The translations under genes were made by a program, and so were the position numbers. Of a stretch of 64,000 nucleotides of DNA, positions 6,376-27,363 are shown one piece after another. The stretch's first letter is position 1; the number at the start of each line of letters is the position of its first letter. The notes under the pieces are model-generated. The model made no database searches, had not been told where the DNA came from, and saw nothing but the letters and a program-made list of their open reading frames with translations. The DNA is from Rhizorhabdus dicambivorans (GTDB lineage: Bacteria; Pseudomonadota; Alphaproteobacteria; Sphingomonadales; Sphingomonadaceae): positions 2,706,001 through 2,770,000 of the forward strand of contig NZ_CP023449.1 in assembly GCF_002355275.1 (NCBI RefSeq), written 5' to 3'.

Positions 6376-6503
6376 TGTCGGTGTTCCATCTTTCGTGAAT
6401 CGGCGCGATTCAGAAACTGAGTCGGAACGATGATTTGAGTTCTATTGGCTTTGTTCCATTGCTGTGAACTGGTCCAAAAATGTGCCATCAACGTGAACTG
6501 AGT
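6376..6503 (+). repeat. Transposon left end: terminal repeat and TnsB-binding-like sites
   Basis: Three similar sites point inward: TGTTCCATCTTTCGTGAA (6382), TGTTCCATTGCTGTGAAC (6452) and TGTGCCATCAACGTGAAC (6481). They are spaced about 70 and 29 bases apart, as in Tn7 left ends, where sites are separated. The first overlaps the terminal repeat. Confidence 0.75.
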
Positions 6504-6513
6504 CGCGTTGCAA

Positions 6514-7137
6514 ATGGAGGGCAAGTTGCGCCGCATCCCGCTCAGCCGGCGATCGCATATGATCGGTTCGCAGTCCTTGGAAACCGGGGTCGCGGAGCAC
6601 GAAAGCGCTCTGGAGCGGGATTTCGTGACGCTCACGAGCTTTGCCGATGCTTGCGCCGTAGTGACGGCGCAGCCGGTTACAGTCCGGTTCCGGCAAAGCG
6701 GGCGGGCGCGGCGATATACACCCGACTTCCGCGTCGATTGGAGCGCAGGTTCCAGCGAGCTGGTGGAAGTCAAATATCGCGTCGATCTGCGTGCTGGCTG
6801 GCAGCATTTGCGGCCCGCCTTCGCGGCGGCCCGGCGCTGGGCGCACGAGCATGGCGCGCGTTTCAGGATCGCAACGGAGCTTGGCATCCGCGGACCGAGG
6901 CTCGAAGCGGCAAAGCGGCTCCTTCCCCTCAGAAATGCTCCCGTGGACCTGGCGCTGGCCGAGCTGGCGGTGGCGCGGGCGCGGGAGACGGCAATCGACT
7001 TCATCGAGCTGGTCGATGCGTTGCCGGCTTCGCGCGAAGTTGCGCTCGGGGTGGTCTGGCGGCTGATCGCGCGCGGGGCGCTGATCGTCGACTTGTCGGT
7101 TCCGATCGTGCCCGGTTCATCCGTGAGGGCGGCGTGA
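6514..7137 (+). CDS. tnsA: TnsA-like transposon endonuclease
   Basis: 207 residues from ATG 6514. The restriction-endonuclease-like core is visible: TPDFRV near residue 70 (metal-binding Asp) and VEVKYR near residue 85 (E-x-K). In Tn7, TnsA cuts the 5' ends of the element so that it moves by cut-and-paste. The N-terminus has the ESALERDF segment typical of the family and the C-terminus a winged-helix-like region (LASREVALGVVWRL-like). No clear ribosome site precedes the ATG; a start at 6559 is possible. The stop overlaps the tnsB GTG start as GTGA. Separate TnsA and TnsB proteins here contrast with the fused forms of some CRISPR-associated transposons. Confidence 0.85.
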   Translation: MEGKLRRIPLSRRSHMIGSQSLETGVAEHESALERDFVTLTSFADACAVVTAQPVTVRFRQSGRARRYTPDFRVDWSAGSSELVEVKYRVDLRAGWQHLRPAFAAARRWAHEHGARFRIATELGIRGPRLEAAKRLLPLRNAPVDLALAELAVARARETAIDFIELVDALPASREVALGVVWRLIARGALIVDLSVPIVPGSSVRAA

Positions 7138-8816
7138 CCGTCCCCGACCTGACAGAGGTTGCAGAAGCCGCCTGGGACGAGGCGCGGCGATGCCTTCCGG
7201 TGATCCGCCGTCTTGCGGAAAGCCCCAACCGGTCGCGGGCAGAAGTTGTAGCTGCGGGCGCGGAACTGGGATACGGGCCGACCCACATCTATAACCTGAT
7301 ACGCAGCTATGTGGCCGATCCGCGGCTGACGAGCCTGCTGCCGAGCAAGCGAGGCCGAGCGTTCGGCTACTCCAAGCTCGACAATGAGATCGAAGCGATC
7401 GTCAGCGAAGTGATCGACAGCCTGTATCTCACGCGGCAGAAACCCAAGATCGTCGATCTTGTCGCGGAGGTTCAACGTCGTTGCATCGCGCGCGGCTTGA
7501 ACGCACCAGGCCGCAAGGGAATTACCGCCCGGTTGCGGGCTCGGCCCGCCCGTGACGTAGTTGCCAAGCGAGAAGGCCGCAAAGTGGCCCGCGACCGCTA
7601 TGCACCGGCAGTAGGGTCGCTCGAGGCGCACTGGCCACTGTCGTTGATCCAGATCGACCACACGCTTGTCGACGTAATCGTGGTCGACAGCGAGACGCGC
7701 GCGCCGATCCAGCGTCCCTGGCTGACGCTTGCGATCGACGTCTGCACGCGCTGCGTTGCCGGCTTCCACCTATCGCTGGAACCCCCTTCAGCCACGTCCG
7801 TGGCGATGTGCCTTGCGCACGCTGCGCTCGGCAAGGAAACCTGGCTGGCCACGCGTGACATCGACGCGGTGTGGCCGGTTCGCGGCGTGCCGGAGCGGCT
7901 CCACCTCGACAATGCCAAGGAGTTCCGGTCGGAGGCGCTGAAGCGGGGGTGCGAGCAATATGGCATCGCCATCGACCACCGGCCTGTGCGAACGCCGCAC
8001 TATGGCGGGCATATCGAACGGCTGATCGGGACGATGATGGGCAAGGTCCATCTGCTGCCCGGAACGACCTTCTCGAACATCCGCGAGAAAGGCGACCTCA
8101 ATCCCGAAAAGAGCGCCGCGATGACGCTGGACGAGGTCGAGCGCTGGCTCGGCCATGCGATAGCCGGCGTTTATCATCGCGATCTGCATCGCGGGATCGG
8201 CACGACGCCGCTCGCTGCATGGCAGCGCGGCATCGCCGGCGACGGTCGGACGCTCGGCAGGGGCGAGCCCACGGCGGTCGCCGATCCGCGCCGCTTCCTG
8301 ATCGACTTCCTGCCGATCGAACGACGCCTGGTACGCCGCGAAGGAGTGTCACTGCACTCGATCCATTACTGGGCCGACGTGTTGGCGACCTGGGTTGGCC
8401 ATCCCGAGCGCATGATCGTGCGCTATGATCCGCGCGACCTCAGCCGCATCCATCTCCTCGGTCCCGACGGCACCTATTACGACCTTGGCTACCGCGATCT
8501 GCGTCGCCCGCCGATCAGCCTGTGGGAGCATCGCCTGGCGCTTAAGCGCCTTCGCGACGAGGGACGCGCGCAGGTCGACGAGGCCGCGATCTTCCGCACG
8601 ATCGAGATCATGCGCGGGATCGCCGACGAAGCAGTCCGAGCCAGCAAGACGGCGCGGCGCCAGCGGGAACGGCGGCTGCGCGTGATCCAGGGAGGGGCGA
8701 ACACGCCTGCGGCTGATCCGGCGGATGACGGTTCTCAGGCCCCGACCGAAACCGAACCGCTTCTGGATGGCACGCTACCTCCCGACAATATGCTGCCGTT
8801 CGAGGAATGGAGTTGA
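7134..8816 (+). CDS. tnsB: TnsB-like DDE transposase
   Basis: 560 residues from GTG 7134, which overlaps the tnsA stop. The DDE catalytic triad can be placed: Asp in IQIDHTLVD (near residue 175), Asp in LHLDNAKEF (near 259) and Glu in GGHIERLIGTMM (near 295). The region before it holds helix-turn-helix domains that should bind the end repeats. A Mu-type beta-barrel follows (DPRRFLIDFLPIERR) and the tail is charged. TnsB joins the 3' ends to the target. The open frame extends upstream across tnsA in another register, but that part is a shadow. Confidence 0.9.
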   Translation: MTVPDLTEVAEAAWDEARRCLPVIRRLAESPNRSRAEVVAAGAELGYGPTHIYNLIRSYVADPRLTSLLPSKRGRAFGYSKLDNEIEAIVSEVIDSLYLTRQKPKIVDLVAEVQRRCIARGLNAPGRKGITARLRARPARDVVAKREGRKVARDRYAPAVGSLEAHWPLSLIQIDHTLVDVIVVDSETRAPIQRPWLTLAIDVCTRCVAGFHLSLEPPSATSVAMCLAHAALGKETWLATRDIDAVWPVRGVPERLHLDNAKEFRSEALKRGCEQYGIAIDHRPVRTPHYGGHIERLIGTMMGKVHLLPGTTFSNIREKGDLNPEKSAAMTLDEVERWLGHAIAGVYHRDLHRGIGTTPLAAWQRGIAGDGRTLGRGEPTAVADPRRFLIDFLPIERRLVRREGVSLHSIHYWADVLATWVGHPERMIVRYDPRDLSRIHLLGPDGTYYDLGYRDLRRPPISLWEHRLALKRLRDEGRAQVDEAAIFRTIEIMRGIADEAVRASKTARRQRERRLRVIQGGANTPAADPADDGSQAPTETEPLLDGTLPPDNMLPFEEWS

Positions 8817-9709
8817 GCACCGACTATCCGCATCTGCACCCCTCGGCCCGTGCATGGGCCGATGAGGACGCAGCATCCCGGATACGGCGCGTTCGCGCGG
8901 ATCGGTGGATCGGCTATGCACGCGCAGACACCGCTCTGGCCGCGTTCGACGATGTGCTGTCGTTCCCGAAGCGGACACGGATGCCGAACCTGTTGCTGGT
9001 AGGCCAGACGAACAACGGCAAGACGATGATCGTCGAGAAGTTCCGGCGGAGCCACCCGCCGACAGCGGCCACCGATACTGCTGACGGTGTTGCCCATGTC
9101 CCGGTCCTCAAGATCCAGATGCCTGCGGGGCCTGACGAACGCCGCTTCTTCGGTGCGATCCTCGAAGAACTGGGCATGGGCCAATGGCACGGTGGCAATC
9201 TTGCGGGACGCCAAAGCGACGCTCTGCGGCTGATGCGGATGGTCGACGTTCGAATGCTCATCATCGACGAGTTGCACAATATCCTCTCCGGCGCCCGCAA
9301 CCAGCAGCGTCGCCTGCTCAACTTGCTGCGATGGCTCGGCAACGAGTTGCAGATCCCGCTCATTGGCGTCGGTACGGTCGAAGCGCTCTATGCGATCCGC
9401 AGCGATGACCAGCTCGCCAGCCGGTTCGAGCCAGTGCCTCTGCCGCTGTGGACCGAGGGCGCGGAATATCTGCGCCTGCTCAGCACGCTGGAGGCGCTGT
9501 TGCCGCTGCGCAAACCGTCCGGGCTCGCCGGTCCGGTGCTGGCGGGAACGATCTTCACGCGCTCCGAAGGCGTGCTCGGCGAAATCGTCGCCATCATCAT
9601 ACGTGCGGCCGTGGAAGCGATATCGTCCGGGGCGGAGGCGATCACGCTGCGGATGATCGAACGATCCAGGTTTACCTCTCCCTCGGACCGTCGTCGTGTG
9701 GAGATCTGA
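8807..9709 (+). CDS. tniB: TniB/TnsC-like AAA+ transposition regulator
   Basis: 300 residues. Walker A is GQTNNGKT near residue 66 and Walker B LIIDELHN near 151, followed by sensor-like IGVGTVEAL and an arginine-bearing DQLASRFEP. The short length resembles TniB of Tn5053 more than the ~550-residue TnsC of Tn7. It should form ATP-dependent filaments linking target recognition to the transposase. ATG 8807 overlaps the tnsB end by 10 bases; a TTG at 8813 sits at better distance from GAGGA and is an alternative start. Confidence 0.88.
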   Translation: MELSTDYPHLHPSARAWADEDAASRIRRVRADRWIGYARADTALAAFDDVLSFPKRTRMPNLLLVGQTNNGKTMIVEKFRRSHPPTAATDTADGVAHVPVLKIQMPAGPDERRFFGAILEELGMGQWHGGNLAGRQSDALRLMRMVDVRMLIIDELHNILSGARNQQRRLLNLLRWLGNELQIPLIGVGTVEALYAIRSDDQLASRFEPVPLPLWTEGAEYLRLLSTLEALLPLRKPSGLAGPVLAGTIFTRSEGVLGEIVAIIIRAAVEAISSGAEAITLRMIERSRFTSPSDRRRVEI

Positions 9710-11195
9710 GCTTTACGCAACGGAAGTCCACGAGCCACTCGCCCCGCTGAAGTATGTCCTGCCGGTCTATACGGCGCCGATCGCCGGCGAAGCGCTGCTG
9801 TCCTGGCTCTCCAGACTTGCCGCGATGGTCGGGCAATCGCCGCTTCTGTTCACCCGCCATGCGTTCGGGATAGATAGCTTGGGACGCCCCGAATGGTGGC
9901 GGCGTCCGACGACGGATCAGCGTGACAGGCTGCTGGCGGTCAGTGGCCTTACACCTCGGCAGCTCGATCGCATGACCTTGCAAGGTTGGTCGACAGCTCG
10001 GAATGATGAGACAGACACGCGGTTCAGCCCGAGGCGCGTCACCCATCCCAGGCAGTATGCGAGAGGTGTCCGCACGATGTTCGTCTGCGGGGAGTGTCTC
10101 GCCGAAGACGAGATACCGTATCTGCGGCGCGAGTGGCTGATCGGTTGGCAGGCAGTCTGCCCGCGGCACAGGAAGGTGCTGATGCGCGGATGCCCGCATT
10201 GCGGATGGAAGCTCAGCTCGCTGTGGCTTCGCGGCAAGGAACCGATCGACTGGCACCGTTGCACACGATGCCAAGGCGCTCTCGTGCTCGATGGCCCGCG
10301 CGCGATCGACGCCGTCATCACGTTGCAGAAGGCGATGGTTGAGACGAAGCGCCGCGGAGCCGGCGTGATCCCCGGCTTGGGCCTCATCCAATGGGAGTTG
10401 TTCACCGTTATCGTCGATCTCGTTCTGCGCGCAGTCTGGGCCGAAGCGAATATCGACCGCCGCGAAGCGCTGTTCGCGATGGTGGCAAAAGACCTCTCGC
10501 TGCTACGCGTTGGCAGGTTCCGGACCAACTGGAAGGGCAACTACGGCGCTTTGGCGCTGATGTCATGGATACTCGCCGAATGGCCCCACCAGCTGAGGCG
10601 CGTGCTTGAAATGCTCGACACTCCAAGCATCGATACCCTGCTTGGTCAGCTCGACGAACTGACCGAGGCATCGAAAATACGCGCCAGAACACTGATGCGC
10701 GATGTGCTGGATCATCGTCCCCAGACCGCGGGCTGGCGGCAATGGCTCAGCGGCTTGGTCGCCGATGGAATGGACTTCCGGGCTCTCGCGCAGGGAGCTG
10801 CCGAGTGGCGGCATATAGAGCGGTTTACCGCGCTTGCCATGCTGAGCGAGGGGCGGTCGATCAGAGACACGGCGAGGGTTCTTCAGGTCAGCACCAACAT
10901 GATCAAGCGGTGGATCGAGGTCGGAAGTACCTATGGAGTGGAAGCCGTCCTTAGACGGCCGCTGCGAATAACTGACCTCACCAACGACCAGATCGGAGAG
11001 ATCGCAGCGTGGCTTGCTACGATGCCGCGGCCTTCGCACTGGACGGGTGACACTATCCGCAGCGAGATCGCCGCGCGGTTCGGGCTAATGATCACGACAC
11101 ATGCCGCTTTGCGACTCTTCGTGGAAAACCATCCTCGACGACCCGAATGGTCCAAACGATCCCCAGTACGAAATGATGGAACCGGTACGCGTTGA
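9696..11195 (+). CDS. tniQ: TniQ family target-selection protein with extra C-terminal HTH region
   Basis: 499 residues from GTG 9696, overlapping tniB by 14 bases. The N-terminal TniQ domain is evident (PIAGEALLSWLSRLA, HAFGIDSL) and is followed by zinc-binding cysteine pairs: CGECLAED, CPRHRK, CPHCGW and CTRCQG (about residues 131-195). The remaining 300 residues include a helix-turn-helix (SIRDTARVLQVSTNMIKRWI near 385-405) and a basic tail. TniQ/TnsD proteins choose the insertion site. As the only target factor in the element, its long C-terminal part probably binds DNA, but the target cannot be read from one insertion. Confidence 0.88.
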   Translation: MWRSELYATEVHEPLAPLKYVLPVYTAPIAGEALLSWLSRLAAMVGQSPLLFTRHAFGIDSLGRPEWWRRPTTDQRDRLLAVSGLTPRQLDRMTLQGWSTARNDETDTRFSPRRVTHPRQYARGVRTMFVCGECLAEDEIPYLRREWLIGWQAVCPRHRKVLMRGCPHCGWKLSSLWLRGKEPIDWHRCTRCQGALVLDGPRAIDAVITLQKAMVETKRRGAGVIPGLGLIQWELFTVIVDLVLRAVWAEANIDRREALFAMVAKDLSLLRVGRFRTNWKGNYGALALMSWILAEWPHQLRRVLEMLDTPSIDTLLGQLDELTEASKIRARTLMRDVLDHRPQTAGWRQWLSGLVADGMDFRALAQGAAEWRHIERFTALAMLSEGRSIRDTARVLQVSTNMIKRWIEVGSTYGVEAVLRRPLRITDLTNDQIGEIAAWLATMPRPSHWTGDTIRSEIAARFGLMITTHAALRLFVENHPRRPEWSKRSPVRNDGTGTR

Positions 11196-11228
11196 TGGCA
11201 CCAGTTCACGAATGACGGAACACTGACA
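11163..11228 (-). repeat. Transposon right end: three tandem TnsB-like sites
   Basis: On the minus strand three sites lie head to tail: TGTTCCGTCATTCGTGAAC (from 11222), TGCCATCAACGCGTACCGG (from 11200) and TTCCATCATTTCGTACTGG (from 11181). The close packing contrasts with the spaced sites on the left, the same left-right asymmetry as in Tn7. The end itself reads TGTCAGTG from 11228. Confidence 0.75.
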
Positions 11229-11233
11229 TTCGG
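11229..11233. repeat. Right copy of 5-bp target-site duplication (TTCGG)
   Basis: Exact match to 6371-6375, directly abutting the right terminal repeat. Confidence 0.9.
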
Positions 11234-11324
11234 CAACCTCTTTGAGCTGGCAGAAACGGGACAATACGACTAAAATAGCCGTAGTTCTGGAGCGCGCGCC
11301 GGTTGCGATGGGAGGTGATCATGC

Positions 11325-11591
11325 ATGATCACCGCCCGACAATCACGGGCCGCACGCGCGTTGCTGGGTTGGACACAGGAGACGCTCGCTGACAAGGCCC
11401 GCCTATCGCTGACCGCGCTCAAGCGCCTCGAATCCGAAAGCGGGCTCGATGTGTACGAGACGACGCGCGATCAGGCACGCAGGGCCTTGGAAGCTGCCGG
11501 CATCGTCTTCCTGTCGACCGACCGAGGGCAAGGAGTGCTCCTGGTCGATGATCGCGGAAACAAGCCGAACCGATCTACAGGCTTACGCTGA
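11325..11591 (+). CDS. XRE-family helix-turn-helix regulator
   Basis: 88 residues. Residues 4-60 form a Cro/CI-type HTH (QSRAARALLGWTQETLADKA, then LTALKRLESESG), followed by the ARRALEAAGIVFL segment common in small phage- and ICE-type repressors. GGGAGGTGATC gives a good ribosome site before ATG 11325. Its position just before a QseM-like DUF2285 gene recalls QseC of ICEMlSymR7A, an HTH protein that controls qseM, but identity with QseC is inferred from position and size only. The Tn7-like transposon separates it from whatever used to lie upstream. Confidence 0.8.
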   Translation: MITARQSRAARALLGWTQETLADKARLSLTALKRLESESGLDVYETTRDQARRALEAAGIVFLSTDRGQGVLLVDDRGNKPNRSTGLR

Positions 11592-11687
11592 CCTGTGGGC
11601 AGCCAGGTTCCCCATCATTTGCACTGCCTCCATTTCGGATCAAACATGGATAATAGACAGGCACCGCATATTCGCCGAGTCTGCACC

Positions 11688-11948
11688 ATGACCGCACCAT
11701 TCCGGGACCTCGCGCCATCGGGGCAAGATCTCACCGATTACGACAAGTCGCACGCCAAACTATACATGCGCTTGCTGGATGCGGCCGCTGACGGCGCGCA
11801 TTGGGAGGAAGCCGTGCGGGTGCTGTTCGACCTTGATCCCGCCCGTGAACCCGAGCGCTGCCGACGCATCCATGACAGCCATCTCGAACGCGCCCGGTGG
11901 ATGACACACACCGGCTATCGGCATCTCCTGCGACAGGCACACCGCTGA
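11688..11948 (+). CDS. QseM-like small DUF2285 protein (putative antiactivator)
   Basis: 86 residues from ATG 11688 (MTAPFRDLAP); an in-frame ATG at 11646 would add 14 residues. The pattern ADGAHWEEAVRVLFDLDP, then RRIHDSHLERARWMTHTGYR, is that of short DUF2285 proteins next to fseA-type genes. In the Mesorhizobium symbiosis island, QseM binds and inhibits both TraR and FseA and so keeps transfer off. Here it lies between the XRE gene and the split FseA-like gene, which supports that role. No TraR/TraI pair is visible in the window. Confidence 0.65.
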   Translation: MTAPFRDLAPSGQDLTDYDKSHAKLYMRLLDAAADGAHWEEAVRVLFDLDPAREPERCRRIHDSHLERARWMTHTGYRHLLRQAHR

Positions 11949-11962
11949 GAGGCTTGCGAACC

Positions 11963-11989
11963 TGCGTGATGCCCTTTCGACATCACGCA
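11963..11989 (+). promoter_or_regulatory. Perfect 9-bp inverted repeat between the qseM-like and fseA-like genes
   Basis: TGCGTGATG (11963-11971) and CATCACGCA (11981-11989) are exact inverse copies around a 9-base centre. No T tract follows, so it reads more like an operator than a terminator. It starts 15 bases after the DUF2285 stop and about 90 bases before the fseA-like start. Confidence 0.5.
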
Positions 11990-12077
11990 ATGCCCTCCTC
12001 CGGACTTCCAACACCCTCGTCGTGCCCCGAAAAATCACACGCTCGACTTACGCGCACCACGCGGGAGAGTTGATGCG

Positions 12078-12419
12078 ATGAGGCCCGATACATCGAACTG
12101 GCGAGACGACCGCAGCTACGATTTCTTCGATACACTGCCGATCGAAGGTCTCGCCTGGGAGTGCCTTCGCAGATACCGCCCTTATCAGGACGATTACGCC
12201 AGTCTGGTCGATGCTGGCGCCGAGACTCAGCCGCTGCCTGACGACAGGCAGCAGCGCTGGGGGTTGCGATTTCCCGGCAAGACCAGGTCGTTCTGCCCTA
12301 CAGCAACAGGTGGTGTGGTCGCCGCAGAGCGATCCCGCCGTCCTCTTTCTGACAGCACGGCCGAACTTTCTGCCGTCCAGCTCAAACAGCCTCGCCGACA
12401 GCTTCGCTGCGGTCCGTGA
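12078..12419 (+). CDS. FseA-like activator, upstream frame (DUF6499 domain)
   Basis: ATG 12078 follows GGGAGAGTT. The first ~65 residues (RPDTSNWRDDRSYDFFDTL, then LAWECLRRYRPYQDDYASL, ending QQRWGLRFPGK) match the DUF6499 domain found at the N-terminus of FseA-type activators. After about residue 68 the frame decays into low-complexity sequence and stops at 12419. The expected continuation (VVWSPQSDPAVLFL, then DUF2285) lies in the +1 frame. As in ICEMlSymR7A, where FseA comes from a +1 programmed frameshift joining two genes, this frame alone should give only a short product. Confidence 0.75.
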   Translation: MRPDTSNWRDDRSYDFFDTLPIEGLAWECLRRYRPYQDDYASLVDAGAETQPLPDDRQQRWGLRFPGKTRSFCPTATGGVVAAERSRRPLSDSTAELSAVQLKQPRRQLRCGP

Positions 12420-12840
12420 TGGCCCTGAAGGAACCTATGCCGGTCTTCCCGAGCACAACCTCCAGCTACTCTTCCTACCCGGCATATCCGCACACGACCA
12501 GCTTGCGGCGGTCGTCCCCATCGATGACGACATCCTCGATCGCATTGATGCGCTGACACGCCTCGCGCGCGCCTGGCTCCAGCGTCCGCCATTGCGCGAC
12601 ACGCGCATGACCGCCGAGCAGCGTCGCCGCTTTCGCCTCAAACTTCGTGCTGCCGACGGCCGCATGAACGGCGCGACCTATCGCGACATCGCCATCGCAA
12701 TCTACGGCGCGGCGCGCATCGATACCGATCCTTGGAAGACCTCGCCGCTGCGGGATGCCGTGATCGCCTTCGCCGAAGCCGGATTGGCCCTCATCGATGG
12801 CGGCTATCTGCACCTGCTTCGGCATCGTCGGCGCACCTAG
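12277..12840 (+). CDS. FseA-like activator, downstream frame (DUF2285 domain), reached by +1 frameshift
   Basis: The +1 frame is open from 12082 to 12840 but has no ribosome site at its first ATG (12211). A slip of one base at CCC-G (12273-12276) would give RWGLRFP then ARPGRSALQQQVVWSPQSDP, which reads as continuous protein. The C-terminal 100 residues are a DUF2285 domain with an HTH-like core (ATYRDIAIAIYGA, then DPWKTSPLRDAVIAFAEAG). The fusion would be about 253 residues. FseA activates rdfS, the excisionase gene that begins the DNA-processing operon; an RdfS-like gene starts 136 bp downstream here. The exact slip codon is my guess. Confidence 0.7.
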   Translation, partial: ARPGRSALQQQVVWSPQSDPAVLFLTARPNFLPSSSNSLADSFAAVRDGPEGTYAGLPEHNLQLLFLPGISAHDQLAAVVPIDDDILDRIDALTRLARAWLQRPPLRDTRMTAEQRRRFRLKLRAADGRMNGATYRDIAIAIYGAARIDTDPWKTSPLRDAVIAFAEAGLALIDGGYLHLLRHRRRT

Positions 12841-12976
12841 CCTGCGCCAACAACAGGGGTGGGGAATTTAGCCATCCCAAGTCCCCCATCCATCCCGCCG
12901 GAGGTTCTCCGCCACCGTTGTCGCTGTCAGCCGCTGATCGCCAGCGGCCCCCAGCAACCCCACGGAGGCCCGCCCC

Positions 12977-13258
12977 ATGCGACCCGATACCGCCGCGCTC
13001 CCGCCACGCTACCTGCGGACCAAGGAAGCCGCTGAATTTCTCAGCCTGTCTGCGCGCACTCTCGAAAAACACCGCACCTACGGCACTGGTCCGGCCTATC
13101 ACAAACTCGGCGGGCGCGTCGTCTATTCGGTCGACGATCTGGAGACCTGGGCCGAGCGCGGCGCCGTGACCTCGACGTCCGATCCGCGCGGCTCCGTGCT
13201 TCCCGCAAAGCGCCAGACGCTACCGACCGGCCAGATCGCCGGCCGATACGCACGCTGA
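12977..13258 (+). CDS. RdfS/excisionase-like HTH protein
   Basis: 93 residues. A MerR/AlpA-type HTH covers residues 10-60 (LRTKEAAEFLSLSARTLEKH, then YHKLGGRVVYSVDDLETWAE). Proteins of this kind act as recombination directionality factors. RdfS in ICEMlSymR7A has this fold and heads the operon leading to the relaxase, the same place as here. CGGAGG precedes ATG 12977. The 136-bp upstream gap is the likely target of the FseA-like activator. It may also act as a transcription factor for the operon. Confidence 0.75.
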   Translation: MRPDTAALPPRYLRTKEAAEFLSLSARTLEKHRTYGTGPAYHKLGGRVVYSVDDLETWAERGAVTSTSDPRGSVLPAKRQTLPTGQIAGRYAR

Positions 13259-13276
13259 TCGTGGCTGGTCCCTTTC

Positions 13277-14437
13277 ATGGTGGTGCGTCGTCGTGACCCT
13301 TCGGAGCGTGGGCAGCTCGACCTGTTTCGCGCGCTTCCCGGCGACTTCGCGCCACGAGACGCGCAGGATCTCATGGCCTATCCCTTCTTCTCCCTCTCGA
13401 AATCACACCGCATAGCGCCGATCGACTTTTCGGCGGGCGGCGTCTCCATCCGGGTAGAGGCCGTTCCCGATCATGGCATGGCCACGATCTGGGACGCCGA
13501 CATCCTGATCTGGGCCGCGAGCCAGATCGTCGAGGCCCGCGACGCGGGCCTGCGCACCTCGCGTCTGATGGCGGCGACACCCTATGAGATCCTCACCTAT
13601 GTCGGGCGCGGCACATCCATGCGCGACTATCAGCGGCTCAAGGCCGCGCTCGACCGGCTGCAATCGACCACCATCTCGACGTCGATCCGCCAGCCCGCTG
13701 AAGGCCGCCGTCACCGCTTCTCGTGGATAAACGAGTGGCAGGAGCGCACGGATCGCCAAGGACGACCGGATGGCATCGAGCTGATCGTCCCCGACTGGTT
13801 CTACAAGGCCGTCCTCGATGACGCGCTCATCCTCACTATCGACCCGGCCTATTTCGATCTCACCGGCGGCCTCGATCGCTGGCTCTACCGCATCGTGCGC
13901 AAACACGGCGGCCGTCAGCGCGGCGGCTGGCGTTTCGACCTACGCCACCTCCACCTCAAATCCGGCAGCCTGTCGCCGTTCAAGCGCTTCGCCTTCGAAC
14001 TGCGAGACATCGTGCGGCGCCAACCACTGCCCGGCTACCTCCTGTCGCTCGAAGTGGAAATCGGCGGGCGCACGCTGCTGGCTTTCGAGCCACTGGCCGC
14101 CTGTGGAAAACCTGTGGGCGGCCTCGTGCTATCGGGAACCCGACCTATCGTGCCATCGGGAACCCGAGGCTCGTGCCATCAGGAACCCAGTCCGGCCTTA
14201 ACTTCTGGAAATCGTGGGCGGATTCGCGCCCTTAACTTAGAGTCTAACCAAGAATCTAACTTTGAAGAGCGCGCGCGCGATGTGGAAAACCTCATCCGCA
14301 CCGCCGCAGCGAACCTCCGCGCCGCCGGCAAATCACCGCGCAAGGGTGCTCCAGCAGCTCAGACGGGCCGGAAAGAGAGCGAACCGGCTTCCCCCGATCA
14401 GCTTCCGCTCCTCGATCCGCCTGGAGGTGCGCGATGA
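13277..14437 (+). CDS. Replication initiator protein A (RepA-like)
   Basis: 386 residues. It belongs to the replication-initiator-A family of plasmids and ICEs: QLDLFRALPGDFAPRDAQDLM at the start, then PFFSLSKS, DADILIWAASQI, a winged-helix region (IRVEAVPDHGMATIWD to RFAFELRDIVRR) and a disordered C-terminal third. Such proteins allow temporary rolling-circle or theta replication of excised elements. It begins 18 bases after the RdfS-like gene and overlaps parA by ATGA. The 3' part carries direct repeats (see 14102-14289), so the gene may contain its own origin. Confidence 0.85.
   Translation: MVVRRRDPSERGQLDLFRALPGDFAPRDAQDLMAYPFFSLSKSHRIAPIDFSAGGVSIRVEAVPDHGMATIWDADILIWAASQIVEARDAGLRTSRLMAATPYEILTYVGRGTSMRDYQRLKAALDRLQSTTISTSIRQPAEGRRHRFSWINEWQERTDRQGRPDGIELIVPDWFYKAVLDDALILTIDPAYFDLTGGLDRWLYRIVRKHGGRQRGGWRFDLRHLHLKSGSLSPFKRFAFELRDIVRRQPLPGYLLSLEVEIGGRTLLAFEPLAACGKPVGGLVLSGTRPIVPSGTRGSCHQEPSPALTSGNRGRIRALNLESNQESNFEERARDVENLIRTAAANLRAAGKSPRKGAPAAQTGRKESEPASPDQLPLLDPPGGAR
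14102..14289 (+). other. Candidate replication origin with iterons inside repA
   Basis: Three direct repeats of GTG(C/T)(C/T)ATC(G/A)GGAACCC occur at 14126-14142, 14150-14166 and 14173-14189, with 23-24 bp periodicity (about two helical turns). TGTGGAAAA, one base off the DnaA-box form TGTGGATAA, lies on both sides (14103 and 14281). An A+T-rich patch between 14235 and 14275 contains GAGTCTAAC and GAATCTAAC. Iterons, A+T-rich DNA and DnaA-like boxes together are the parts of an iteron origin. The encoded peptide here is low-complexity, so the DNA rather than the protein may be conserved. Confidence 0.5.
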
Positions 14438-15087
14438 TCGTCGCGTTCCTCAACCAGAAAGGCGGTGTCGGCAAGACGACGCTGGCGCTCAACCTCGCCG
14501 GCGAACTCGCCGGGCGCGGTCAGCGCGTCACCCTTATCGACGCGGACCCACAGGGCTCGGCCCTCGACTGGTCTGAGCAGCGCAGCCATGAGGGCCTGCC
14601 GCGCCGGTTCGGCGTCGTCGGCCTGGCGCGCGACACGCTCCACCGCGAAGCGCCGGAACTGGCCCGCGATGTCGACCATGTCGTCATCGACGGCCCGCCG
14701 CGTGTCGCAGCCCTCATGCGCTCGGCGCTGCTCGCCGCCAACCTCGTGCTGATGCCGGCGCAGCCGTCGCCGCTCGACGGCTGGGCATCGGCCGAGATGC
14801 TGGCGCTGCTCGGCGAAGCCCGCGTCTATCGCCCGGAACTGGTCGCCCGCTTCGTGCTCAATCGCTGCGGTGCGCGCACCGTCCTGGCCCGCGAGACCGC
14901 CGAGACCCTGGCCGATCACGATCCACCGTTGCTCGCCACCACCATCGGCCAACGTATCGCCTTCGCCGCCGCCGCGCAGACCGGCCGCCTGGTCGCCGAA
15001 CTCGCCGATGCGACATCGGCCACACGCGAGATCGCGGCGTTCGCCGACGAACTCTTGCGTCTGCGGATCGACGGGGGCGCACAATGA
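14434..15087 (+). CDS. parA: ParA-family partition ATPase
   Basis: 217 residues. The deviant Walker A box is KGGVGKTT (residues 10-17), switch I DADPQGSALDW (about 36-46) and Walker B VIDGPP (near 86). It is a short, plasmid-type ParA with no N-terminal HTH. It overlaps repA and the following small RHH gene by 4 bases each. It probably partitions the excised, replicating element. Confidence 0.92.
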   Translation: MIVAFLNQKGGVGKTTLALNLAGELAGRGQRVTLIDADPQGSALDWSEQRSHEGLPRRFGVVGLARDTLHREAPELARDVDHVVIDGPPRVAALMRSALLAANLVLMPAQPSPLDGWASAEMLALLGEARVYRPELVARFVLNRCGARTVLARETAETLADHDPPLLATTIGQRIAFAAAAQTGRLVAELADATSATREIAAFADELLRLRIDGGAQ

Positions 15088-15335
15088 ACGAACGATCCCC
15101 TCGTCGTGGCTTCGCCTCGCGCCCCGCCAATCCCGACCAATGGATCAAGGCTGCGGACAACGCACCACGCGCCGCTGACGTCGCTGCGTTCACCGCCAGG
15201 CTCACCATCGATGTGACGCCCGAACTGCGCGGACGGATCAAGATCGCCGCGTTCGGGCGCGGCGTCACCGTCGCCGACATGCTGCGCGAGCTGCTCGCGC
15301 GTGAATTCCCCTCGACACCAGGAGACCCCACATGA
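15084..15335 (+). CDS. Small ribbon-helix-helix protein, probable ParA partner
   Basis: 83 residues. The C-terminal half (FTARLTIDVTPELRGRIKIA, then ADMLRELLARE) fits a CopG/ParG-like ribbon-helix-helix. A disordered, basic N-terminus of about 40 residues resembles centromere-binding ParG-type proteins that stimulate a ParA ATPase. It is translationally coupled on both sides (ATGA overlaps). The partner role follows from position and fold; I cannot point to the parS site. Confidence 0.7.
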   Translation: MNERSPRRGFASRPANPDQWIKAADNAPRAADVAAFTARLTIDVTPELRGRIKIAAFGRGVTVADMLRELLAREFPSTPGDPT

Positions 15336-15853
15336 CCGGCACTGCGGCTCCCCGCATGCGCGGCGGCCCGCTGCCGTCAGCGCTCCCCCATGACAGCATG
15401 ACCCACGTCGAACTGACGTGGATCGAGAAGAAGATCGAATACTGGATCAGGTTCGGCCGTGAGGCGCATGAACAGATCCTCGACCGCCGCCGGCGTGTCG
15501 TCTCCTTCCGTCCAAACACCGTATTCGCGTTCGTGCGATGGGCGGCCAACGACTTCGGCACGATCATCTCGCGCGTCGACATCGTGCGCGCAGTCGAGCC
15601 CGGAGAGCCCTACCAGACGCTGCCTTTCGTCCGGCCGGGCGGTGAAATCCTGCTCAGGATCGACGGATGGCCAAAGGTCGAAGACGTGCTGCGCCACGTC
15701 GATGCAATTGAAGCGATCGGCACCGAGGCGGACGCCGTTTCGCCGGAACACTGGCGTCACGTCCACAACCGGATGGCGGCTGGACATCAGCCGCGCACCT
15801 ATACGCTCGACCAGCATCGCGCCTTCCTCCTGCGCCGGAGGACGTGGTCGTGA
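15332..15853 (+). CDS. DUF2840 family protein
   Basis: 173 residues. Recognised by THVELTWIEKKIEYWIRFGR, DRRRRVVSFRP and FAFVRWAANDFGT, which are characteristic of DUF2840 proteins between parA and traF in alphaproteobacterial ICEs. The function is unknown; there are no membrane segments or catalytic motifs. It overlaps the previous gene by ATGA and the TraF-like gene by GTGA, so it is part of the same coupled operon. Confidence 0.88.
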   Translation: MTGTAAPRMRGGPLPSALPHDSMTHVELTWIEKKIEYWIRFGREAHEQILDRRRRVVSFRPNTVFAFVRWAANDFGTIISRVDIVRAVEPGEPYQTLPFVRPGGEILLRIDGWPKVEDVLRHVDAIEAIGTEADAVSPEHWRHVHNRMAAGHQPRTYTLDQHRAFLLRRRTWS

Positions 15854-16395
15854 CGCGCGCCGGTCTCTTCCTCGTCATGGCTCTCGCGACCACGGGCATC
15901 AGCTATCCGGCGCTCACCCCGATGCCGATCAAGCTCCTGTGGAACGCATCGGCGAGCGCCCCCATCGGCTTCTACACGATCGACGTCGATGGCCCGTTCG
16001 ACGTCACCGATCTCGTTGCCGTCGATGCGCCCGAGCCGCTCGCGACCTTCATGGCCGAACGCGGCTATCTTCCCAAAGGCGTCCCGCTGCTGAAGCGCAT
16101 TCTCGGCGTTTCCGGGCAGACCGTTTGCCGCTCGAACCTCTCCGTTACGATCGACGGCCTCGAGATGGGCGATGCGCTGCCGCGTGATCGCGCCGGGCGT
16201 GACCTCCCGGTCTGGCAGGGCTGCCGCCGTATCCCGACCGGCGAAGTCTTCCTCATGAACTGGCAGGTCCGCGACAGCCTGGACGGTCGCTATTTCGGCC
16301 TGACCTCCACCGACCAGATCATCGGCCGCGCCGTCCCCCTGTGGACCGACGAGGACGGAACGGGCCGCTTCGAATGGCGCGCACCGACGCGATGA
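15850..16395 (+). CDS. traF: TraF-type S26 signal peptidase of the conjugation operon
   Basis: 181 residues from GTG 15850 (GTG 15844 adds two residues). A single N-terminal membrane segment is followed by SASAPIGFYTI, which contains the catalytic Ser, and LLKRILGVSG, with the catalytic Lys. FLMNWQVRDSLDGRYFG corresponds to the conserved box E-like part. TraF of RP4 matures and cyclises the TrbC pilin, so the substrate here is probably the TrbC at 23199. It ends just before a strong hairpin. Confidence 0.88.
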   Translation: MTRAGLFLVMALATTGISYPALTPMPIKLLWNASASAPIGFYTIDVDGPFDVTDLVAVDAPEPLATFMAERGYLPKGVPLLKRILGVSGQTVCRSNLSVTIDGLEMGDALPRDRAGRDLPVWQGCRRIPTGEVFLMNWQVRDSLDGRYFGLTSTDQIIGRAVPLWTDEDGTGRFEWRAPTR

Positions 16396-16402
16396 ACACC
16401 TC

Positions 16403-16434
16403 GCCATCGGCGGGGGGCGGCGCCCACCGATGGC
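16403..16434 (+). terminator. Hairpin between traF and DUF736 copy 2
   Basis: GCCATCGG (16403-16410) pairs exactly with CCGATGGC (16427-16434), with a G+C-rich interior that can extend the stem, followed by TTTCCC. It could be a weak terminator or an mRNA-processing hairpin reducing readthrough inside the operon. Confidence 0.5.
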
Positions 16435-16464
16435 TTTCCCAACGTCGCCGCAAAGGAAGTCATC

Positions 16465-16812
16465 ATGCCTCAGATTGGTCAATTCACGCGCCAGGACACG
16501 GGCTTCGCCGGCAAGCTGGAGACGTTCACGCTCTTCCGCGATGTCGTCATCGTGCCGGCAGAGCCCTCCGATGCCGAGAACGCGCCGAATTACCGCGTTC
16601 ACGCCAGCGACGATGGCAAAGCCGAAGCAGGTCCGGAAATCGGCGCGGGCTGGAAACGCACCGGCGAGCGCGCGGGCGAATACGTTGCCGTACTGATCGA
16701 CGACCCTGCGCTGCCGCAGCCGATCCGCGCCAATCTGTTCCGCGACGATGACGCCGGGAACGCCTGGTCGCTGCACTGGTCGCGCCCGCGCGACCGCGCC
16801 GGGAAGGACTGA
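16465..16812 (+). CDS. DUF736 family protein (copy 2)
   Basis: 115 residues with the DUF736 pattern: MPQIGQFTRQDTGFAGKLET, PNYRVHAS, EIGAGWKR, YVAVLIDDPALPQPIRANL and a final SLHWSRPRD. It is clearly homologous to, but diverged from, the protein at 5834. AAAGGAAG precedes ATG 16465. Its place between traF and the lytic transglycosylase is constant in this ICE type. Function unknown. Confidence 0.9.
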   Translation: MPQIGQFTRQDTGFAGKLETFTLFRDVVIVPAEPSDAENAPNYRVHASDDGKAEAGPEIGAGWKRTGERAGEYVAVLIDDPALPQPIRANLFRDDDAGNAWSLHWSRPRDRAGKD

Positions 16813-16815
16813 CCG

Positions 16816-17595
16816 ATGTCCGGTCCTCGACCAACGATGAGCCGTAGGGATGCGCGCGGGCGGCATCACGCCGTCCGGCGCATGGCCTTCCTTCTCCTTT
16901 CCGGCCTGGCCCTCGCAGCAGGCGCACCGGACGCCGCTCTTGCCCAGTCCGTGTCGGCTGCGCGCACGGCCGCTGGCGATCCGCACGCCGCCTTCGTCAC
17001 CGAAGCCTCGCAGCGGTTCGGCATTCCCGAACACTGGATCGTCGCCGTCAAACGCGCCGAAAGCGCCGGCGATGTGCGCGCCATATCGTCGGCTGGCGCG
17101 CTGGGGTTGATGCAGGTCATGCCCGATACCTGGGCCGCGCTTCGCGTTCGCTATGGGCTCGGGCGTGATCCCTACGACCCGCGCGACAACATCCTCGCAG
17201 GCGCTGCCTACCTGCGCGAAATGTTCGACCGCTATCGCACGATCCCCGCAATGCTGGGGGCCTACAATGCGGGGCCTGGCCGCTACGACGAATACGTCCA
17301 GACCGGCCGCGCCCTGCCTGCCGAAACGCGGGCCTACATCGCGCTGCTGGCTCCGCAGCTAGGCGCACCATCGCCGGCGAGCACGCCATCAGTTGCGCCG
17401 CCACCGCCGCCGGATTGGCGGGAAGCGCCGCTCTTCGTCGTGCGTTCCGCCGACGCTCGTTCGGCATCATCGCCATCGGAAAGCGTGCGGTCGAACGACA
17501 GCCGCTCCTCCGTCGCGGCGCGCACTCCCGATACCGCCGAAGACTCGAACGCCCCGATCGTGGTCGCTCGCTCTGACGGGGGGGCGCCCCGATGA
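16816..17595 (+). CDS. VirB1/TrbN-like lytic transglycosylase
   Basis: 259 residues. It has a basic N-terminus and a secretion signal (MAFLLLSGLALAAGAPDAAL, cleavage after AQS). The SLT domain follows: catalytic Glu in KRAESAGD (near residue 78), GALGLMQVMP, and AYNAGPGRYDEY. The last 90 residues are proline- and serine-rich. It would open peptidoglycan in the periplasm for the transfer machinery. It starts 3 bases after DUF736 copy 2 and is followed by the oriT-like region. Confidence 0.9.
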   Translation: MSGPRPTMSRRDARGRHHAVRRMAFLLLSGLALAAGAPDAALAQSVSAARTAAGDPHAAFVTEASQRFGIPEHWIVAVKRAESAGDVRAISSAGALGLMQVMPDTWAALRVRYGLGRDPYDPRDNILAGAAYLREMFDRYRTIPAMLGAYNAGPGRYDEYVQTGRALPAETRAYIALLAPQLGAPSPASTPSVAPPPPPDWREAPLFVVRSADARSASSPSESVRSNDSRSSVAARTPDTAEDSNAPIVVARSDGGAPR

Positions 17596-17663
17596 GCTGC
17601 GGAAGTATCCTTCGCACTCTGTCGCATTCCGGCGTGACATGGAGGGCACAAGGGGGAGAGGCA

Positions 17664-17838
17664 GGCACAACAACCGCACGATGGCAGGATAAAAGGCCGC
17701 ACATTGCGCGGCGGTCGGGCGGTTGTTTTTGCAAGAGGTTTTGGCGCGCTCCACACATTGCCGTGCTCATCGGCAATGTGCGCCTGACGCCCAATTGCCT
17801 GTATCAGCGTGATTTTTCGCACATTGCGGCCTTGCGTC
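17664..17838 (+). other. Candidate oriT upstream of the relaxase gene
   Basis: This short non-coding stretch holds a 10-bp perfect inverted repeat, CACATTGCCG (17754-17763) and CGGCAATGTG (17771-17780) with a 7-base loop. It also has two more direct copies of CACATTGC at 17700 and 17820. A second structure pairs CAACCGC (17670-17676) with GCGGTTG (17719-17725), followed by a T run. Relaxase-adjacent repeats and stem-loops are the usual content of an oriT. The last CACATTGC is 12 bases before the relaxase start, so relaxase binding could also repress its own gene. Confidence 0.6.
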
Positions 17839-19578
17839 ATGGCCGATGACCACGAGTTTCGTGTTCGGCCTGGGCGCATCCGGTCAAACCGTGCGCAGTC
17901 GGCTCGGCCCTTCATCGCGCAGGCGCTGGCCGCCGCGAAGAAGGCGGGCGGCGGCGTCTCGCGCTCCGGGCGCGTCGCTCCCGCCAATCGCTCGCGCTTC
18001 GGCCGCGGCCAGCGCGCCAGCATCCAGGCGAACCGCCTCATCACTGCGCGCACGCGCGGCGCAGTCATCAAGGCCCGCGTCGTGCGGCACTCCGGCCGCA
18101 CCGCGCCGCTCGGCACGCATCTCGATTATCTCCGCCGCGATGGCGTGACCCGTGATGGAGAAAAGGCCCGGCTGTTCGGGCCGGGAACGGAGGAAGCTGA
18201 TGGCCGCGCCTTCGCCGGGCGATGCGAGGATGATCGCCATCATTTCCGCTTCATCGTCTCACCGGACGACGCCGTGGAGATGTCGGACCTCAAGTCCTTC
18301 ACGCGCGATCTTGTCGGCCAGATGGAAAGGGACCTGGACACGCGGCTCGATTGGGTCGCGGTCGATCACTGGAACACCGAGCATCCTCACGTCCATCTAA
18401 TCGTGCGCGGCGTCCGCGACGACGGCCAGGACCTCGTGATCTCGCGCGACTACATCAAGGAGGGCATGCGCGATCGCGCGCGTGACCTCATCACACAAGA
18501 GCTTGGCCCTCGCACAGATCTCGATATTCGCCGCACGCTCGAACGCCAGATCGAGGCGGAGCGCTGGACGCAGCTTGATCGGCAGCTTGTCCGCGACACT
18601 GGAAAGACCGGCGTCATCGATGTCGCCCCGCAGGTCGGCAGCCAGCCCGACGCCTACGCCGTCGAGAAGGTCGGCCGCCTGCGCAAACTCGCAGCCCTCG
18701 GCCTCGCCAGTGAAGTCGGCCCTGGCCAGTGGATGATCGACGATCAGGCTGAGGTGACGCTGCGCCAGATCGGCGAACGCGGCGACATCATCAAGCGCAT
18801 GCACCGCGCGCTCACCGAACGCGGTATCGACCGCGGCTCGGGCAACTACGTCCTGGCAGGGGAAAGCCTCGATGTGCCGGTCATCGGCCGTCTGGTCGAG
18901 CGCGGCCTTGATGATGAGCTGAAGGGAACGGCCTACGCCGTGGTCGACGGCGTCGATGGCCGGACCCACCACATCCGCTTGCCGCATCTCGATGCGGCAG
19001 GCGACAGCGCGCCGGGCTCGATCGTCGAGCTGCGCAGCTTCGAAGATGCTCGCGGCGAACGCCGCGTCGCGCTCGCCGTCCGCTCCGATCTCGATCTCCA
19101 GCATCAGGTGAACGCCTCGGGCGCGACCTGGCTCGACCGGCAATCCATCGCCCGCGAACCCGTCGCCATGTCGGAGGGCGGCTTTGGCGCCGAGGTGCGG
19201 CACGCGATGCGACAACGGGCGGAACATCTGGTCCACGAAGGTCTCGCCGAGCAGCAAGGTCGCCGCGTCATCTTCAGCCGCAACCTGATCGAGACGCTTC
19301 GGCGCCGTGAGGTCGACGCCGTTGCCGACCGGCTCGCGAAGGAGACAGGCCACCCGTTCAAAGCGGCCGGCAATGGAGAATATGTCGCCGGCACCTATCG
19401 CCAGCGCATGACGCTCGCATCCGGCCGCTTCGCGATGATCGATGACGGCCTCGGCTTCCAGCTCGTGCCCTGGTCGCCGTCCCTCGAAAGCCAGCTCGGC
19501 AAACACGTCTCCGGGGTCGCCCGCGGCGACGGCGGTGTCGACTGGAGCTTCAGCCGAAAGCGGGGGCTCGGCCTCTAA
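17839..19578 (+). CDS. Relaxase (RlxS/VirD2-like, DUF3363 type)
   Basis: 579 residues from ATG 17839 (MADDHEFRVRPGR). A basic N-terminus (~70 residues) precedes a HUH-type nuclease domain: the likely catalytic Tyr lies in HLDYLRRDGVT (near residue 98) and the metal-binding histidines in WNTEHPHVHLI (near 178). The C-terminal DUF3363 region (ERGLDDELKGTAYAVVDGVDG, VPWSPSLESQLGK) is characteristic of relaxases from Mesorhizobium-type ICEs. It should nick oriT and lead the strand through the coupling protein. I chose this start over 17809 because it lies after the last oriT repeat. It is followed 26 bases later by traG. Confidence 0.9.
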   Translation: MADDHEFRVRPGRIRSNRAQSARPFIAQALAAAKKAGGGVSRSGRVAPANRSRFGRGQRASIQANRLITARTRGAVIKARVVRHSGRTAPLGTHLDYLRRDGVTRDGEKARLFGPGTEEADGRAFAGRCEDDRHHFRFIVSPDDAVEMSDLKSFTRDLVGQMERDLDTRLDWVAVDHWNTEHPHVHLIVRGVRDDGQDLVISRDYIKEGMRDRARDLITQELGPRTDLDIRRTLERQIEAERWTQLDRQLVRDTGKTGVIDVAPQVGSQPDAYAVEKVGRLRKLAALGLASEVGPGQWMIDDQAEVTLRQIGERGDIIKRMHRALTERGIDRGSGNYVLAGESLDVPVIGRLVERGLDDELKGTAYAVVDGVDGRTHHIRLPHLDAAGDSAPGSIVELRSFEDARGERRVALAVRSDLDLQHQVNASGATWLDRQSIAREPVAMSEGGFGAEVRHAMRQRAEHLVHEGLAEQQGRRVIFSRNLIETLRRREVDAVADRLAKETGHPFKAAGNGEYVAGTYRQRMTLASGRFAMIDDGLGFQLVPWSPSLESQLGKHVSGVARGDGGVDWSFSRKRGLGL

Positions 19579-19604
19579 TCACCGAAGTAGAAAGGACCGC
19601 CGCA

Positions 19605-21596: not shown

Positions 21597-21600
21597 CACC

Positions 21601-22050
21601 ATGCCCGGACGCAAGAAGAAGGTGCCGATTTCCGTATATCTCGACCCCGCCATCATGGCGACACTATCGAACTATGCAGGCCGACGCGAACAACCGCTCT
21701 CCCTGATCGCAGAGGCCGCCATCGCGTCCTTCCTGTCGCCAGACGACGCGGAGCGGCGTGAAGCCGTGGTCGCCAAACGCCTCGACCAGATCGATCGCCG
21801 TCTCAACCGCATGGAGCGCGACATCGGGATCTCCGTCGAGACCATGGCCGTATTCATCCGGTTCTGGCTCAACACGACGCCGGCGCTGCCAGAGCCCGCA
21901 GCCCAGGCAGCGCGCGCCATGGTCGGGAAGCGCTACGAGGCGTTCATCGCGGCCCTTGGACGGCGCTTGGCCCAGGGACCGAAACTTCGGCAGGAGATCG
22001 TTGAAGATGTCGGCGAGTCGCCGTCCAGCCCGACAGAGAGCGATCCATAG
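21601..22050 (+). CDS. CopG-family RHH protein between traG and trbB (cluster 1)
   Basis: 149 residues. The N-terminal 45 (KKKVPISVYLDPAIMATLSN, then SLIAEAAIASFL) form a ribbon-helix-helix. A coiled-coil-like stretch follows (RLDQIDRRLNRMERDIG), then a hydrophobic helix (ETMAVFIRFWLNT). This protein is a constant member between traG and trbB in this family. It is probably a regulator or relaxosome accessory factor; no target is known. It begins 4 bases after the traG stop. Confidence 0.85.
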   Translation: MPGRKKKVPISVYLDPAIMATLSNYAGRREQPLSLIAEAAIASFLSPDDAERREAVVAKRLDQIDRRLNRMERDIGISVETMAVFIRFWLNTTPALPEPAAQAARAMVGKRYEAFIAALGRRLAQGPKLRQEIVEDVGESPSSPTESDP

Positions 22051-22194
22051 GCTTCAGCGCGCGTGGATCAATCGCATCGCCCAACCGCCGTTCTCCTGTA
22101 TTTGCACGCCACGCTACTACGACGACCGATACTTGTTGAATCAGCCTGATTCACGGCTCTTTTAATCACCCCGATCCGGGGACCGTCGTTTTCA

Positions 22195-22214
22195 GCCCCG
22201 TCAGAAAGCGGGGC
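22195..22214 (+). promoter_or_regulatory. Hairpin directly before the trbB start codon
   Basis: GCCCCG (22195-22200) and CGGGGC (22209-22214) flank an 8-base loop, ending 4 bases before ATG 22219. No purine-rich ribosome site is visible other than the GGGG within the stem. The hairpin could limit trbB translation; the 168-bp gap before it is the only break in the traG-trbI gene string. Confidence 0.35.
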
Positions 22215-22218
22215 CGAA

Positions 22219-23202
22219 ATGACCACAACCAGCCAGAAGCCGGAGGCGTTCGCGCGCGGTGCGCGCATGCTTCGCACCGCGCTCGGCTCGACCATCACCC
22301 ATTTTCTCGAAGACCCGGCCGTGGTCGAAATCATGCTGAACCCGGACGGTCGTCTCTGGGTAGATCGCCTCTCCGAAGGGCTGGCCGATACGGGTGAGAC
22401 GCTGTCGCCTGCCGATGGCGAGCGCATCGTGCGGCTGGTCGCTCACCATGTCGGCGTCGAGGTGCATCCGCGCAGCCCGCGAGTCTCCGCCGAGCTTCCT
22501 GAGACGGGAGAGCGGTTCGAGGGCTTGCTGCCGCCCGTTGTCGCCGCACCGGCCTTCGCCATCCGCAAGCCCGCCGTCGCGATCTTCACGCTCGACGATT
22601 ATGTGGCCGCCGGAATCATGTTCGCTGACCAGGCGGCGACGCTACGCGCAGCCGTGATGGCGCGCGCCAATATCCTTGTCGCGGGCGGCACTTCCACCGG
22701 CAAAACCACGCTGACCAATGCGCTTCTGGCCGAGGTCGCCAAGACGGCGGATCGCGTCGTCATCATCGAGGATACCCGCGAGCTTCAGTGCGCCGCGCCC
22801 AATCTTGTCGCCATGCGGACCAAGGATGGAGTGGCCACGCTCTCGGAGCTGGTTCGCTCTTCGCTACGCCTGCGCCCCGATCGCATTCCAATCGGCGAGG
22901 TGCGCGGCTCTGAAGCTCTCGATCTCCTGAAAGCATGGGGAACCGGCCACCCCGGCGGCATCGGCACGATCCACGCCGGGAGCGGCATCGGCGCGCTGCG
23001 CCGCCTTGAACAACTCATCCAGGAGGCCGTCGTCACGGTCCCGCGCGCCCTGATCGCCGAGACCATCGATCTTGTTGCCGTCCTTTCCGGTCGCGGCTCC
23101 GCGCGTCGGCTCGCCGAACTCGCCCGCGTCGATGGGCTCAGCCCGGACGGCGACTACGCCATCACCCCCGCAACCCTTGACCGCACAGGAGCGCCATCAT
23201 GA
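22219..23202 (+). CDS. trbB: TrbB, VirB11-like secretion ATPase (cluster 1)
   Basis: 327 residues. Walker [11 protein letters not shown] lies near residue 156, the Asp box IIEDTRELQ near 180, Walker B-like [12 protein letters not shown] near 220 and the His box [13 protein letters not shown] near 245. The N-terminal domain ([16 protein letters not shown]) is typical of TrbB. It would form a hexamer at the inner membrane powering pilus and channel assembly. It overlaps trbC by ATGA. Confidence 0.95.
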
Positions 23203-23815: not shown

Positions 23816-23829
23816 GGAGGCGTATCGTC

Positions 23830-27065: not shown

Positions 27066-27075
27066 GGTCGCGGCC

Positions 27076-27360: not shown

Positions 27361-27363
27361 ACC

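Follow-up and report, generated by a model that had tools for sequence, protein, structure and literature searches.

The segment at 12078-12840 of the window, a stretch of 64,000 nucleotides from Rhizorhabdus dicambivorans (contig NZ_CP023449.1), is very probably (about 0.93) fseA, which encodes a transcriptional activator that drives excision and transfer of an ICE, with a +1 slip of the ribosome at TTT-C linking its two halves. The slipping itself is predicted from the sequence. FseA-type frameshift systems have already been described. New here are a different ICE setting, a corrected slip site and, possibly, a detail of codon choice next to that site.

FseA homologues number 4709, and about 61% of them are encoded in two frames with a conserved +1 site beside WGL/UGGGGG (PMC10359603). 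The +1 site is conserved across alpha-, beta-, and gammaproteobacteria (PMC10359603). The locus in the window has the sequence features by which FseA is recognised, namely DUF6499, DUF2285, two frames in +1 relation at WGL/UGGGGG, and a QseM-type gene on the same element.

Two-frame layout of fseA and its conservation

The following features were assigned to fseA.

12063-12068, + strand: probable ribosome binding site of fseA, GGGAGA, judged from the sequence
12078-12419, + strand: 0-frame open reading frame with the DUF6499 domain (aa 7-66) and an unconserved tail past the slip site, stop TGA at 12417-12419
12259-12263, + strand: Shine-Dalgarno-like GGGGG inside the Trp-Gly codons (TGG GGG); the G run with its 6-nt spacer is common, and Gly GGG is in excess
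12267-12269, + strand: CGA codon, which occupies the E site while TTT is being held in the P site
12270-12273, + strand: slip site TTT-C, where the P-site tRNA-Phe would move from UUU to UUC
12274-12840, + strand: +1-frame part of fseA, with a middle domain and the DUF2285 DNA-binding domain (Pfam RovC_DNA-bd, E 3.8e-33)

In the Pfam search the 113 aa frame at 12078-12419 matched DUF6499/Trans_reg_dom (PF20109, E 2.6e-21), and its N-terminal region contains AWECLRRY, an AWEFLRRN-like motif. DUF2285/RovC_DNA-bd (PF10074, E 3.8e-33) was found in the +1 frame that ends at 12840. This +1 frame follows a TGA at 12079-12081 and stays open from 12082 to 12840. Its earliest start codon is ATG 12211, which has no Shine-Dalgarno-like sequence upstream, unlike ATG 12078 with its GGGAGA. 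DUF6499 and DUF2285 do lie in two different frames, that of 12078 and the one at +1. The first-pass annotation had described an FseA-like gene split in this way at 12078-12840, with a +1 frame open from 12082 that lacked a ribosome site of its own, and both descriptions held.

A single +1 step after WGLRF generates a single chain of 253 aa that contains both domains. When this joined product was aligned with homologues encoded in a continuous frame, no gap appeared over the seam (WGLRF-PA-RP in the window, WGLRF-GA-DP in the continuous homologue L140). The continuous homologues have the same domain order and are gap-free through the junction.

Conservation of the split was examined at two depths. 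A scan of contigs with the DUF2285 half gave 18 close-relative loci of 71-99% identity. Family searches of about 1,090 genomes plus fetched stretches gave 189 distinct loci with DUF6499 and DUF2285. All 18 close relatives (71-99% identical), which come from differing orders and assemblies, share the +1 split. They belong to Brevundimonas, Nitrospirillum, Sphingomonas, Rhizobium, Aureimonas, Novosphingobium, Hansschlegelia, Paracoccus, Shinella, Kaistia and other genera. Close relatives with a single uninterrupted frame, which the first-pass annotation had named as the sign of a simple mutation or sequencing error, numbered 0/18. Among the 189 distinct loci the DUF2285 half was at +1 relative to DUF6499 in 142, continuous in 45 and at +2 in 2, and in-frame stops were found in 0. 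The ratio of 142:2:0 (+1, +2 and in-frame stop) indicates that random decay is not the source of the split. The two loci at +2, L084 and L132, are probably decayed or misassembled copies. The length of the open frame was dropped as a criterion for split and continuous genes, since long 0-frame open reading frames arise by chance in some split loci (L096, L148).

On a tree of 148 rows the split or continuous label changed 10 times, compared with 33 times when labels were shuffled. The layout is therefore inherited, with only occasional switches. The R. dicambivorans genome itself has 5 DUF6499 loci, of which 4 are split, all with TTT-C (L001, L002, L003 and L005), and 1 is continuous. In loci L039-L047 the DUF2285 half is 92-99% identical across several alphaproteobacterial orders, pointing to a recent spread of the ICE.

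The variable sites among the close relatives were then sorted by codon position. Before the seam, 29, 24 and 43 of them fall in positions 1, 2 and 3 of the 0-frame codons (43/96 in the third). After the seam 150/267 are in +1-frame third positions, compared with 68 and 49 in the others. The phase of variation switches between about 12264 and 12287 (chi-square p 5e-7, with related sequences treated as independent), and the +1-frame third-position pattern runs from 12276 on. Constraint in the overlap, 12276-12419, is on the +1 frame. Because variation there follows the +1 frame, selection does not act at the protein level on the tail that ends the 113-aa product. Across the split loci the 0-frame tail past the slip site is anywhere from 1 codon upward, with a median of 19. 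Judged by this pattern, selection acts on the joined product and is purifying in both frames, each on its proper side of the seam.

The probable slip site TTT-Y and the signals around it

The slip site was sought in the 139 split loci with an identifiable Trp-Gly-Leu landmark. All but one of them (L121) have TTT with C or T as the next base (138/139). In 134 loci it is in register (C next in 132, T next in 2), and in 4 it lies one codon later by way of an inserted codon. TTT followed by A or G occurs in 0 of the 139. The split representatives have a median amino-acid identity of 28%. Unlike the split genes, the continuous homologues have no TTT-Y at the seam in 39/41 and no preference for CGA; TTT occupies the seam position in 2/41, and TTC, in 9, is the commonest Phe codon there. 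A gene for tRNA-Phe with the GAA anticodon is present in the R. dicambivorans genome. Since GAA reads UUU and UUC and nothing else, the restriction to C or T after TTT is what re-pairing of tRNA-Phe (GAA) demands. One continuous homologue, L140:601-1263, has the seam TGG GGG CTG CGG TTC GGC, which is near the split-site form except for TTC in place of TTT. It is possibly a case of a lost frameshift.

Codon choice at the seam was compared with a background drawn from the remaining codons of those genes; the counts include related sequences, which makes the p values too small. The Phe codon is TTT in 134/135 split loci, against 30% in the background and 2/11 in continuous loci. The Arg codon before TTT is CGA in 62/69 split loci, against 9% in the background and 0/10 in continuous loci. 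The Gly codon is GGG in 107/139 split loci against 14%, and is mildly raised (15/41) in continuous loci. The Leu codon is TTG in 74/133 split loci against 10%. A run of five G with a 6-nt spacer to TTT was found in 95/139 split loci, and in the window TTT-C likewise sits six bases past the Shine-Dalgarno-like TGGGGG. The UGGGGG tract at the FseA seam has been noted before (PMC10359603), and the preference for CGA may be a new detail.

We propose that, while the ribosome reads through TGG GGG TTG CGA TTT CCC, GGGGG at 12259-12263 can pair with the anti-Shine-Dalgarno sequence of the 16S rRNA. The latter was assumed, as a pattern search of the genome did not find the 16S 3' end. Once UUU occupies the P site, tRNA-Phe (GAA) would detach and re-pair with UUC at 12271-12273, a better match in the third position. 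Reading onward in the +1 frame would produce the 253-aa activator, which probably dimerises. A ribosome that stays in frame would make the 113-aa DUF6499 product with its meaningless tail. Slipping at UUU-C would probably be of low frequency, and it may throttle transfer, as the first-pass annotation suggested.

The +1 frameshift of E. coli prfB (release factor 2) also uses an upstream Shine-Dalgarno-like G tract and a slip of the P-site tRNA, with a 3-nt spacer. At fseA, in contrast, the A site holds CCC (or CGC) and no stop codon, and the spacer is 6 nt and not 3. The genes are unrelated, and fseA lacks the autoregulation by a release factor.

A downstream RNA structure was considered as a stimulator. 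None was consistent among nine folds, which were no better than shuffles (z -1.7 to +0.6), so a structure of this kind, if required, is missing, and an Rfam scan of 9000-17000 gave no match. More tentatively, and with rather less than even confidence, the skewed codons may form a larger and compact frameshift code, UGG GGG UUG CGA UUU CY, in which a rare E-site CGA (weak inosine-A pairing) and a U-rich UUG after the G tract take part. If so, the choice of the E-site codon would adjust the frequency of activator synthesis, and no downstream RNA structure would be needed.

Other explanations for the two frames

The slip had earlier been placed one codon later, at CCC-G (12273-12276), where tRNA-Pro would move from CCC to CCG, and the seam had been put at 12267-12310. 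A two-frame seam in that interval is real, but the conserved element is TTT-C (12270-12273), which precedes CCC-G by one codon. CCC followed by another base is in general a plausible slip codon, and CCC does follow TTT in 59/134 split loci. However, in 54 others TTT is followed by CGC, and elsewhere by CGT, CGG, CTC, CAC, TGC or TGT, none of which has an equivalent re-pairing; CCT accounts for a further 11. The base after CCC also varies (C, T or G) even in close, near-identical relatives, where CCC-C, CCC-T, CGC-T and other forms are seen. Because the codon after TTT and the base after CCC both vary, CCC-G is best seen as a local accident of the R. dicambivorans copy, and it was rejected as the slip site on conservation, TTT-Y being the sole common element. 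The comparison of homologous loci that had been suggested as a check thus upheld the two-frame layout and not the slip site proposed with it. We consider slipping at CCC-G improbable, although a minor contribution at the R. dicambivorans locus alone is conceivable. Slips at TTT-C and CCC-G yield the identical residues RFPARP here, so mass spectrometry cannot separate them.

The halves might also be two separate proteins that work as a pair, the DUF2285 half being translated from its own start, for example the ATG at 12211 in the +1 frame. Paired separate proteins have been suggested for rihF1a/rihF1b of Azorhizobium (PMC9601964), and the DUF6499 and DUF2285 domains interact in the FseA model (PMC10359603). 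A +1-frame start with any Shine-Dalgarno-like 4-mer ahead of it, however, was found in only 14/139 split loci, and a protein begun at ATG 12211 would carry some 20 extra residues that the DUF6499 region encodes in the wrong frame. Selection in the +1 frame starts at the slip site and not at a start codon, and independent starts would explain neither TTT-Y nor the constant +1 offset. Two independently started proteins are thus highly improbable. A sequencing error or a recent inactivating frameshift in a single-frame gene has in its favour that decay exists in the family, as in the two copies at +2, but it is refuted by the same layout in 18 close relatives and 142/189 loci and by the purifying selection seen in the 0 frame before the seam and in the +1 frame after it; its chance is negligible. 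Hardly any weight falls on transcriptional slippage, in which a second mRNA differing by one inserted or missing base would likewise join the frames. Such slippage normally needs long runs of A or T, whereas the window has only TTT then C, and the bases that follow vary.

The ICE around fseA and probable control of transfer

The ICE to which fseA belongs has the following features in the window.

11325-11591, + strand: small helix-turn-helix regulator gene (Pfam HTH_3, E 6.2e-5), putatively QseC-like; it adjoins the qseM-like gene as in ICEMlSymR7A
11688-11948, + strand: qseM-like gene, DUF2285 alone, antiactivator candidate (phmmer to QseM structure 7uqt, E 1.1e-19; Pfam DUF2285, E 1e-6)
12908-12923, + strand: block CCGCCACCGTTGTCG upstream of rdfS, kept in relatives, at the expected place of an FseA box half-site and the -35 (PMC10359603)
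12977-13258, + strand: rdfS-like gene (recombination directionality factor), likely target of FseA (phmmer to RdfS structure 8dgl, E 2.3e-9; Pfam HTH_17, E 8e-11)
13277-16395, + strand: repA, parA, a small open reading frame, a DUF2840 gene and a traF-like peptidase gene, the backbone from rdfS to the relaxase
16816-31569, + strand: transfer genes identified with Pfam, namely lytic transglycosylase, relaxase, traG and trb type IV secretion
42799-44076, + strand: tyrosine integrase gene, candidate integrase of the element (PF00589 at window 43432-43911, C1:2749432-2749911, E 2.5e-22)

The genes are in the order qseM-fseA-rdfS, and a DUF2285-only gene lies at an equal distance upstream of two further split fseA copies in the genome. 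In ICEMlSymR7A, FseA activates rdfS, and QseM blocks FseA through its DUF6499 part (PMC10359603, PMC5882170). By homology, an FseA dimer would here bind DNA upstream of the adjacent rdfS and turn on the excision and transfer genes, and the QseM-like protein encoded upstream would restrain the activator by binding its DUF6499 part. The interval ahead of rdfS, 12840-12976, contains two blocks conserved in relatives, GGGGTGGGGAATTTAGCCATCCC and CCGCCACCGTTGTCG, which are candidate FseA binding sites. Inverted hexamers with a 15-16 bp spacer, as in an FseA box, could not be assigned upstream of rdfS in the relatives' alignment, nor could an inverted-repeat partner of CCGCCACCGTTGTCG.

Directly upstream of the qseC-qseM-fseA module, at 6480-11195, are transposition genes of the TniA/TniB/TniQ type (Mu-transpos_C, TniB, TniQ), suggesting that a Tn5053/Tn7-like transposon was inserted beside the transfer regulators.

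FseA of ICEMlSymR7A (msi172-msi171) resembles the protein encoded here in domain order, +1 relation, WGL by UGGGGG, a QseM-like partner and a target of the rdfS type. The settings differ. The gene in the window lies directly between qseM and rdfS, whereas that of ICEMlSymR7A follows traI2 and is under TraR control. The window contains no LuxR-type gene, and its interval from rdfS to traF includes a Rep gene and a DUF2840 gene. This last arrangement is typical of ICEs other than ICESyms (PMC8627217), and it supports placing the fseA element outside the symbiosis ICEs. An FseA-type +1 activator in another ICE lineage, as the first-pass annotation had suggested, agrees with the conserved +1 layout and with this type of element.

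A search for autoinducer-binding LuxR-type genes found none in the 64-kb window, and the nearest chromosomal matches are ∼38 kb and ∼59 kb from fseA. Membership of the FseA family does not depend on control of fseA by a LuxR-type TraR and AHL. Some 2 kb upstream of each of two other fseA-like loci of the genome (L005/L219 and L004/L221; C1:4184081-4187022 and C1:2777580-2780606) lies a LuxR-type autoinducer gene; fseA is split in one of these loci and continuous in the other. The three split loci with an upstream QseM-like gene have no LuxR gene nearby.

Two further relatives were compared. The related conjugative plasmid pMLb of Mesorhizobium japonicum has an fseA that is likewise split, with TTT-C. 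RovC of Yersinia (PDB 6xz5) is a distant relative that shares the AWECLRR motif and the DUF2285 fold, at E 0.006 only.

The comparison of loci places the slip at a specific, testable codon, and a TTT-Y motif six bases past the G tract separates split from continuous genes. The same motif would aid the annotation of fseA genes that have been recorded as two fragments or left unannotated. The frameshift switch for transfer known from a Mesorhizobium symbiosis ICE appears to be intact in a different type of ICE, near-identical copies of which are found in Brevundimonas, Nitrospirillum, Rhizobium, Sphingomonas, Aureimonas and other genera.
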